A DNA stretch of 35,135 nucleotides from Microcoleus sp. CSU_2_2 (lineage in GTDB: Bacteria > Cyanobacteriota > Cyanobacteriia > Cyanobacteriales > Microcoleaceae): the NCBI GenBank assembly GCA_012035135.1, contig JAAUPI010000029.1, forward strand, positions 1-35,135, read 5' to 3'. A model generated the notes under the pieces. That model was not told where the DNA came from. It worked only from the letters and a program-made list of their open reading frames with translations, and made no database searches. Both the position numbers and the translations under genes were made by a program. Below are positions 15,137 to 21,688 of this stretch, one piece after another (the first letter of the stretch is position 1; every line of letters starts with the position of its first letter).

Positions 15137-15184
15137 GTTGATAGCAGTTGAAATTAAGAGCTTTATTGGGCGATCGCAACAGTT

Positions 15185-15246
15185 GTCAACCCAACGGCAC
15201 GCGAGCGGGCAAGCTGTCAACCCAACGGCACGCGAGCGGGCAAGCT
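15185..15246. repeat. Tandem repeat, two perfect 31-bp units
   Basis: Units 15185-15215 and 15216-15246 are identical. Each starts GTCAACCCAACGGCAC and ends GCGAGCGGGCAAGCT. A GTCAATTGTCAACTG tail follows. The CGAGCGGGC core is shared with 2358-2406. It is non-coding and lies just beyond the gun4 stop codon. Confidence 0.85.
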
Positions 15247-15254
15247 GTCAATTG

Positions 15255-16269: not shown

Positions 16270-16842
16270 CTAATCGTCCACAATCGAAGCCCATGCAGAG
16301 AACGAAGGTGGAAAAAAGTTGATGTCATACTCGGAGAATTCCCACTCCTTGACCCAAAGCGGGACTCCGCCAGAGCCTTTAGTTGTGGTAAAAGTTCGAT
16401 CTTTGACTTCGATCGTGTGAAATATCTGTTTCAAGGTATCCCCTCGATCCAAAGCTTCGCTGAGTATGTCGTCCAATTCAGGAGCAACACGCTTGACCCG
16501 ATTTTGCTCCTCCTCCAGCCACAAAAGTTTCAACGATTTCAGATCCCTCGGACTGAGGATGCTCTTGTAGTAGACCCGCTTGAGGGTGGCTACTGGCTCC
16601 AAAGAACGTTCGATGCGACGAATTTGCTGAACTCGGAGGTAGTGCCATTCAGCCAAACGCTTGCGTTCCGATGGCGGGATAACTCCCTTACCCGTTGCGT
16701 GTTTGTAGTCGTAGTTAATCAAACTGCAAGCCATATTGGCCAGCAAGTGGATTAACTGTTTTTCTTTGGGTGTTGCCTGTCGCCGTTCTTGGGTTCTTGT
16801 CAATACTCGCTCTCTGCGAGTAGTCACGAAAGTGTTTTCCAT
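16270..16842 (-). CDS. Hypothetical four-helix-like basic protein
   Basis: I do not recognise this 190-residue protein. It is mostly helical and rich in Arg/Lys/Glu: a basic N-terminus (TRRERVLTRTQERRQATPKEK), helices over about residues 23-120, then an acidic stretch EEEQNRVKRVAPELDD and a C-terminal part ending in aromatic residues (WVKEWEFSEYDINFFPPSFSAW). There is no signal peptide or membrane segment. The ATG at 16842 was chosen over in-frame starts further upstream because the extra residues look like non-coding sequence. No Shine-Dalgarno sequence is seen. The opposite-strand frame is long but has no protein-like features. Confidence 0.6.
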   Translation of the reverse strand: MENTFVTTRRERVLTRTQERRQATPKEKQLIHLLANMACSLINYDYKHATGKGVIPPSERKRLAEWHYLRVQQIRRIERSLEPVATLKRVYYKSILSPRDLKSLKLLWLEEEQNRVKRVAPELDDILSEALDRGDTLKQIFHTIEVKDRTFTTTKGSGGVPLWVKEWEFSEYDINFFPPSFSAWASIVDD

Positions 16843-17345: not shown

Positions 17346-17560
17346 GTTAGATGACCCTGATTGGCGTAGATTGACACTTTTTAGCAAATCCGATCTTTCA
17401 GAAGTGGGCCGATGCAATAGCCCACTTGTATTCTGATAAATCTGCCTGCCATAATCAATTCAGACAGGCACACCTGAGCGATCGAAAACGCCGGAAGTGA
17501 CGTGTTAGTAGTGTCCACGATCTTCCACCAACCCGAGTTTTTTGGGTAGTGGAGCTAAAG

Positions 17561-17640
17561 CCATCAGGGCGTCGATCTATCAGGGAGTTATGCCATCAGG
17601 GTGCTAATCCATCGGGTAGTTAATCCATCAGGGCGCATCT
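17561..17640. repeat. Iteron-like array, five 16-bp direct repeats
   Basis: Units start at 17561, 17577, 17593, 17609 and 17625, exactly 16 bp apart. The conserved head is CCATCAGGG (variants CTATCAGGG and CCATCGGGT), followed by a looser tail with consensus near GTTAAT. The period is not a multiple of three, so this is not a coding repeat. Regular spacing is typical of protein-binding arrays such as iterons or operators, or of a repeated RNA motif. It lies in a 760-bp gene-free gap (17346-18106), directly before a palindrome and an intrinsic terminator. Confidence 0.75.
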
Positions 17641-17647
17641 TTTACCA

Positions 17648-17663
17648 GCATGGAATTCCATGC
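17648..17663. promoter_or_regulatory. Perfect 16-bp palindrome GCATGGAATTCCATGC
   Basis: It starts 8 bp after the 16-bp repeat array and is fully self-complementary. A site of this form suits a homodimeric DNA-binding protein. No gene of a matching regulator is visible beside it, so its function is inferred only from symmetry. Confidence 0.5.
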
Positions 17664-17716
17664 CATCTAAGTCAACTAAAAAAACGCAGATTAACGATAT
17701 CTCCCACTCAAGCAGT

Positions 17717-17741
17717 CCTCAGCCAAATGCTGGGGTTTTTT
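17717..17741 (+). terminator. Intrinsic terminator without an annotated upstream gene
   Basis: CCTCAGC (17717-17723) pairs with GCTGGGG (17729-17735), allowing one G-U pair, with loop CAAAT and six T residues following (17736-17741). It is a textbook rightward Rho-independent terminator. The nearest genes are the leftward small secreted gene and the rightward AAA gene that starts 365 bp later, so no rightward protein gene ends here. It therefore points to an unannotated rightward transcript from the 17420-17740 region. Confidence 0.65.
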
Positions 17742-17888
17742 ATTGGGAGCTATTGCCGCTTAACCTTGACGGCGCTGCGGTGAGAAGTCTCCTTGACCAC
17801 ATCATACCACTGAGTGAATTTTAAAGTATTATTGTAAAAAAATGTAAACACAACAACTGTTTGGCGTTCTCGATCGAGTTTAGTTAAA

Positions 17889-21440: not shown

Positions 21441-21590
21441 GGAAACGGCAATGCGGTGTCCAGATTTGCCGATCGTTCCTTGATTATTTTGGCGTAGGGA
21501 AACGACAATGCCGCGTCCAGATTTGCCGATCGTTCCTTGATTATTTTGGCGCAGGGAAACGACAATGCCGCGTCCAGATTTGCCGATCGT
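21441..21590. repeat. Tandem repeat, 57-bp period, 2.6 copies
   Basis: Units start at 21441, 21498 and 21555. Each begins GGAAACG(G/A)CAATGC and continues through CCAGATTTGCCGATCGT to a TTGATTATTTTGGCG end; the third copy is cut short where the CRISPR-like repeat begins. Units two and three differ at one or two bases. The period is divisible by three, giving a repetitive frame on the minus strand, but it lacks a plausible gene context. The head of the unit matches the palindrome at 9221-9245. Confidence 0.85.
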
Positions 21591-21688
21591 TTCCCCACAA
21601 GGGGATTAAAATAGCGTAGCGTTGTGCGTTACCGTCAGCGTTGCGTTATTTAGTTGCAATTCACACTTCCCCGCAAGAGGATTGAAAC
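21577..21688 (+). CRISPR. CRISPR-like relic: one good repeat, one degenerate repeat, one 40-bp spacer
   Basis: The 36-bp sequence at 21653-21688 starts GTTGCAATTCACAC and ends AAGAGGATTGAAAC, the form of cyanobacterial CRISPR repeats with a CTTCCCCGCAAG core hairpin. A second match at 21591-21612 shares TTCCCC.CAAG.GGATT.AAA, but its left half diverges and merges with the tandem repeat. The gap of 40 bp between the two is of spacer size. No cas genes are in the window and no further repeats follow, so this is at best a dead remnant or a solitary repeat. Confidence 0.5.

Follow-up and report, generated by a model that had tools for sequence, protein, structure and literature searches.

The sponge RNAs CsrB and RsmZ are small RNAs that carry many copies of a motif which, in the target mRNA, covers the ribosome-binding site. 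Their partner in this type of control, CsrA, needs GGA. In heterocystous cyanobacteria, NsiR1 is a small RNA in which whole genes are tandemly repeated. A further class of bacterial repeats consists of tandem units whose size is constant and whose sequence is variable, and they are described as a group that extends across genomes (PMC8161180). The locus described here is an array of five units in Microcoleus sp. CSU_2_2, and it lies in the window, that is, the whole stretch of 35,135 nucleotides that was analysed. Like CsrB and RsmZ, the RNA predicted from it multiplies a motif found at the ribosome-binding site of an mRNA. The features of the locus are collected in the table.

Features of the array locus in the window, with positions counted from its first letter
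Feature	Position	Strand	Remarks
190-aa protein	16270..16842	-	adjoins all array-bearing copies whose locus reaches far enough
Small ORF, 69 aa	17136..17345	-	hydrophobic signal-like N-terminus, conserved C-terminus YTGTNEDG..EEVKTGK
Array-motif copy ATCAGGGTCATC	17350..17361	-	at the ribosome-binding site of the divergent small ORF
Near-palindromic 26-bp promoter site AAGTGGGCCGATGCAATAGCCCACTT	17402..17427	+	family form close to AAGTGGGTTATTGCAATAACCCACTT
Predicted promoter	17426..17455	+	TTGTAT 17426-17431, 18 nt, -10 box CATAAT 17450-17455
Predicted non-coding RNA, about 280 nt	17462..17742	+	from placement of promoter and terminator; start inferred from the -10 box
Possible hairpin GGAAG...CTTCC	17493..17526	+	from sequence; without a T tail here
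Possible hairpin CCACCAACCC...GGGTAGTGG	17525..17552	+	overlaps the hairpin at 17493-17526
Array of five 16-nt units	17561..17636	+	cores at 17561, 17577, 17593, 17609 and 17625
Perfect palindrome GCATGGAATTCCATGC	17648..17663	+	read as RNA hairpin GCAUGG-AAUU-CCAUGC
Predicted intrinsic terminator CCTCAGCCAAATGCTGGGG then TTTTTTATTG	17717..17742	+	hairpin 17717-17735 plus T tail; -10.3 kcal/mol

On the plus strand the units read, in order, CCATCAGGG, CTATCAGGG, CCATCAGGG, CCATCGGGT and CCATCAGGG, with starts exactly 16 bp apart. The fourth unit (CCATCGGGT, at 17609) bears two changes; it is absent from the pattern-match list and was read off the sequence directly. Unit positions outside the core are more variable than the core. 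Over 80 bp the array matches itself at 66% with an offset of 16 and at 75% with an offset of 32 (z about 7.0), and the best stretch among 40 dinucleotide shuffles (12 kb, periods 8-40) reached z = 5.2. TRF scores the array at 68 for period 16 and at 95 for period 32. No ORF of at least 80 aa crosses it, only short ones. The sequence, TRF, the shuffles and the ORF list thus bear out the five 16-bp repeats in a non-coding gap that an earlier note on this DNA had described. A search for the unit elsewhere, proposed in the same note, gave a divided result: by itself the core is not a rare sequence in the window (9 occurrences allowing at most one mismatch vs 5.1 expected, as many being reached in 11 of 100 shuffles), whereas the phased arrangement is exceptional. 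Phasing, and not core frequency in the window, is the unusual property of the array.

The array region was matched in 34 of 59 relatives, among them all 28 congeners searched, and within the family in 52 of 61 genomes and 8 of 11 genera. When conservation was set against free variation in relatives, five units at 16 bp were found to be kept in 28 of 28 congener loci. Across the copies with at least three cores, many of which are close relatives, the core-to-core spacing is exactly 16 in 110 of the 152 spacings shorter than 60 nt.

The earlier note had joined the array and the palindrome GCATGGAATTCCATGC into one feature. Both are present where it had placed them, but the joining did not stand. 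The distance of the palindrome from the last core is 157-163 bp in 17 of 26 congener loci and 14 bp in the other nine, which the window resembles with its own 14 bp; because this spacing differs among congeners, array and palindrome are separable features. Among 28 congener loci the palindrome is identical in 18, has both arms changed in six and occurs as a single variant in two (one G-U wobble and one loop change, both tolerable in a plus-strand hairpin), and it was not found in the remaining two. It behaves as a hairpin that would belong with the terminator end and not with the array. In 19 of the 28 congeners (L012-L030) an insertion of about 145 bp, with possible hairpins of its own, lies between array and palindrome at the place of window position 17646.

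The array very probably (we would put it at about 0.85) forms the 3′ domain of a small RNA that is transcribed from the plus strand, is about 280 nt long and belongs to a family with a common palindromic promoter. The promoter palindrome is expected 0 times by chance (100 window shuffles), and the intrinsic terminator scan of the window returned one site vs 0.6 expected in shuffles. A strict sigma-70 scan of the window reported no promoter. The ORFs inside the predicted RNA are short ones only. Upstream of the array, the possible hairpin at 17493-17526 is the apparent counterpart, judged by its sequence, of the terminator hairpin of stand-alone copies; the hairpin that overlaps it is broken in a Trichodesmium copy, as read by eye.

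The strand of the RNA is indicated by three kinds of evidence. Promoter statistics were computed on the 41 copies left after removal of near-duplicates. NATAAT occurs 20-23 nt past the promoter palindrome in 27 of the 41; among control windows further down it occurs in 1 of 205. At the equivalent place on the opposite strand it is present in 6 of 41. Several of the 14 copies without NATAAT show TATAAA, TATATT or CATACT at about the -10 place, and nine Planktothrix-type copies have a TATGAT box facing the opposite way. A hairpin with a T tail was found, for 38 chosen copies at equal lengths of 376-420 nt, in 30/38 on the plus strand vs 4/38 on the minus strand and 31/190 shuffled plus strands. 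A cut-off of -12 kcal/mol leaves 23/38, 3/38 and 9/190. Three of the 30 plus-strand matches (L032, L033, L067) fall within the RNA and not at its expected end, and eight of the 38 copies (L013, L141, L034, L069, L070, L088, L139, L111) have no plus-strand terminator within 376-420 nt; L034, L069 and L070 are the three Planktothrix-type array copies tested. The terminator lies at 102-105 nt in 10 of 18 stand-alone copies and beyond the array in 12 of 20 array-type copies.

The third kind of evidence comes from wobble pairs. In the 24 stand-alone copies, many of which are close relatives, the plus strand yields a consensus hairpin of -11.5 kcal/mol with double changes in 6 of 11 pairs. GU vs AC cells number 14 vs 4 on the plus strand and 4 vs 7 on the minus strand. 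RNAalifold, run for the minus strand on alignments A1 and A2, gave two pairs on A1 and no pairs on A2; with RIBOSUM scoring both alignments fold on both strands, and more strongly on the plus strand. Of the alternatives that the earlier note had listed, the repeated RNA module is the one favoured by the promoter, terminator and wobble evidence on the plus strand.

The inverted-repeat pattern (17402-17428) matched 66 stretches in genomes, several of which hold more than one copy, and it gave 0 matches in the viral contigs searched. All copies possess the promoter palindrome because they were collected by that site. Members of the family occur, according to record titles, in Microcoleus, Tychonema, Kamptonema, Okeania, Trichodesmium, Planktothrix and relatives. 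In the members with an array, a CAUCAGG-type core can be counted 3 to 8 times ahead of their own terminator, with eight each in L086 and the Planktothricoides locus L132 and six in Oscillatoria SIO1A7 (L141). Many array-free members terminate about 100 nt past the palindrome, and the array member extends beyond. In the class-wide search, in which the promoter pattern was exact and strict and missed a known copy in G018, it was found in 4 of 388 genomes, all in the window's own family.

Nine of 15 array-free loci sit between convergent genes, by a reading of mechanical ORFs, and therefore the promoter has no mRNA to make there. Some array-free copies follow a gene that we take to be trpA, and others stand beside what is presumably a P450 gene. 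Genomes G343 and G344, tentatively Limnospira or Arthrospira, contain two to four tandem stand-alone copies (L149, L166), 164-176 bp apart; in L149 (G344, 822-1535) there are four, 164-166 bp apart, downstream of a gene read as trpA. In the array-free paralogues L139, L110 and L107 (Lyngbya aestuarii BL J, RM2_1_1 and M33_DOE_052), a motif close to AUCAGGGUCAUC lies downstream on the transcribed strand. At two of the 15 array-free loci (L135, 7168-7721; L111, 5610-6239) the palindromic site faces a gene resembling a single-domain response regulator. The transcripts driven by this site are therefore not necessarily all non-coding, and protein genes may belong to its regulon.

The array-bearing copies are associated with a divergent peptide. 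Among 84 copies, 42 have at least three cores, and 36 of these 42 have the peptide ORF, vs 0 of the 41 core-poor copies; L080, which has the ORF, was left out of this split as its sequence is too short for a core count. The six copies with at least three cores and without the ORF are of Planktothrix type. Peptide length ranges across loci from 48 to 77 aa; the N-terminus is hydrophobic, and the acidic C-terminus is conserved in a form near YTGTNEDG..EEV.TGK. The product of the small ORF is putatively secreted, as its N-terminus is read. The 69-aa sequence had no match in Pfam or NCBIfam. A class-wide search detected the peptide in 3 of 291 genomes, none of them outside the window's own family.

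The neighbouring 190-aa protein shows 66-89% identity across 17 aligned homologues and was found in 2 of 194 genomes of a class-wide sample, both of the window's genus. Its AlphaFold2 model has a mean pLDDT of 46. An identity as HetP was rejected, since Pfam and NCBIfam assign no family to it. Pfam placed the eight window proteins submitted to it in the GUN4, RuvA, DUF790, DUF2786, DUF3598 and AAA_35 families or in none. The window contains two other tandem repeats: one of 57 bp at 21441-21591 (2.6 copies, 95% matches), right behind ruvA, and a perfect one of 31 bp at 15184-15251 (2.2 copies), in the interval from the DUF2786 gene to the GUN4 gene.

The core of the array recurs once more at the locus. 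An inverted copy, CAATCAGGG, lies on the minus strand at 17355-17363, at the ribosome-binding site of the small ORF, where GATGACCCTGATT is unchanged in the aligned congeners. In the window this ribosome-binding site reads AAUCAGGGUCAUC, a sequence that agrees with the small RNA's units in both motif and sense. In 20 loci the likeness between array and ribosome-binding site was matched by at most 4 of 200 shuffles in 19 and by 9 of 200 in one; it was computed as minus-strand complementarity, which equals same-sense similarity on the other strand, and in several loci (clearly L001, L078 and L126) the segment taken as the array extended into upstream sequence via chance cores. In only 4 of the 20 loci does the own array rank first among the 20.

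With one representative from each of eight lineages, the aligned stretches are 9-16 nt long, several of them gapped or mismatched. Some shared stretches are specific to a lineage, such as CAUCUACUA in Okeania L031, GUACAUC in L086 and AUCAGGGGCAUCU in M33_DOE_052 L033. When arrays were swapped among the eight lineages, the extra upstream sequence being trimmed for L001, the mean score fell from 20.0 to 18.4 (p = 0.027), a modest difference between lineages that are not independent. The own array was best or tied in only 3 of the 8.

At other ribosome-binding sites in eight genomes there was no sign of the motif (14 matches, six of them at this ORF, vs 9 for the reversed control), and therefore the proposed factor would have one known target. 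The motif ATCAGGGKCATC gave 50 matches in 11 genomes vs 6 for the reversed control. The 31 sites read come from 30 loci: a long opposite-strand frame covers 23 of them, one is covered by a same-strand frame only, and seven lie under none; these seven comprise four peptide starts, one paralogous RNA and two others (L189, L199). A regulon defined by this motif was dropped, as with 23 of 31 sites under a long opposite-strand frame the excess looks mostly coding. Mini-ORFs within the units were dropped as well, for by eye they are open in some lineages and stopped at once in others. Among the predicted folds of 13 RNAs, eight have cores that are less paired than the remainder (by 0.01 to 0.27) and five have cores that are more paired, a mixed picture of core accessibility.

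The simplest reading of the motif shared by array and ribosome-binding site is that of a decoy. Some RNA-binding protein or small RNA would recognise the array-type motif on the peptide mRNA, and the factor bound at the ribosome-binding site would block translation of the peptide. The array RNA would titrate this factor as CsrB does CsrA, with a different factor and a different motif, and the palindromic promoter site would set the timing of sponge production. The statement as a whole, joining a small RNA with the array as its 3′ domain to this mechanism, falls somewhat short of even odds, and the copies and lineages that furnish its evidence are not independent. The mechanism taken separately, in which tandem copies of the ribosome-binding site titrate a repressor other than CsrA, is tentative and slightly less probable. 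The fuller version is doubtful: a Csr-like titration without CsrA, in which the array copies the neighbour's ribosome-binding site and a palindrome-binding regulator common to the paralogous RNAs governs release of the peptide. The decoy is kept as inferred because pairing between the array and the 5′ end varies by lineage and core unpairedness is mixed. Given the phased array and the matching ribosome-binding site, it is directly testable.

The same plus-strand small RNA could act in another way, the array providing repeated antisense seeds in which CCAUCAGGG pairs with sites of the CCCUGAUGG type in target RNAs or in its own 5′ end. Near-identical, repeated seeds of 8-9 nt suit base pairing, and duplexes between 5′ end and array were equalled by few of 300 shuffles in L081 (0), L033 (1), L003 (3) and L034 (3). 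The pairing is absent, though, in L086, L132 and L078 (222, 199 and 139 of 300 shuffles as good) and weak in the Microcoleus-type loci L013, L023 and L029 (69-82 of 300), and this reading appears unlikely. A somewhat lower probability attaches to the array as a DNA operator, whose direct repeats would bind an oligomeric protein and, with the inverted copy near the peptide start, control the divergent pair. The exact 16-bp phasing would fit such a site, as would copies that flank the promoter region on both sides; yet the array falls within the predicted transcript, about 100 nt past its start, the motif is sense-oriented in both transcripts, and the DNA site found family-wide is the promoter palindrome and not the array.

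On the minus strand, the small ORF could have a structured 5′ leader with units pairing with its ribosome-binding site. This model was dropped because terminators, wobble pairs and the -10 box indicate the plus strand. In the general form of the model, the peptide gene or the 190-aa gene would have a long 5′ leader with CCCUGAUGG units that mask the ribosome-binding site in cis. The array is indeed complementary to that site on the minus strand in the 20 loci tested, and TATAAT or TATGAT boxes face that way in some species. Against this stand the terminator counts and the wobble pairs of the stand-alone copies given above, together with plus-strand terminators just outside the array in several genera, and the leader ranks slightly below the operator. 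That the array consists of replication-origin iterons or forms a partition site, as the earlier note had considered, is very improbable. Phased direct repeats beside a palindrome do resemble such a site, but the region lies on single-contig assemblies of 6.7-6.8 Mb (G018, G020), the window's own genome (assembly 84% complete) has one match, Pfam recognised no replication or partition protein among the eight window proteins, and the palindrome stands apart from the array in the 17 congener loci mentioned.

The small RNA that remains the preferred reading was compared with known families. Rfam 15 gave 0 matches above the gathering threshold in the window and in six relatives, and in 13 further loci only group I intron and DUF3800-VI, with no match to the small RNA. 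PsrR1 (RF02701) matches weakly at 17677-17740, with 21.2 bits vs a gathering score of 42, UAUCUCCCA and the terminator shape being alike; this identity was rejected, as similar scores occur at other places in these genomes and 12 of 14 control genomes also match weakly. A literature search conducted without full texts, with most subscription papers outside its scope, found no description of the array or of the RNA family. An unexplained repeat thus becomes a small-RNA family with predicted boundaries, unmatched by Rfam 15. If the decoy model is true, it adds another route to sponge-type translation control, tied to a putative secreted peptide, and indicates a so far undescribed RNA-binding factor. 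The hosts of the family include soil-crust and bloom formers.

Beyond the multiplied motif, the locus differs from CsrB and RsmZ in several respects. Only one of the five array units contains GGA (17577, CAGGGAG), and the CsrA gene was detected in 0 of 11 genomes, with control detections in 3 of 14 (E. coli, B. subtilis, T. maritima). The regular 16-nt phasing of the array is a further difference. With NsiR1 it shares the condition of a cyanobacterial small RNA with tandem repetition, and in two genomes (G343, G344) the trpA-linked copies are tandem genes too. It differs in that the 16-nt units lie inside one RNA, a distinction from NsiR1 drawn by description only. With the constant-size repeats (PMC8161180) it has the constant unit size and the variable sequence in common, while here the repeat belongs to one RNA locus with a conserved core.
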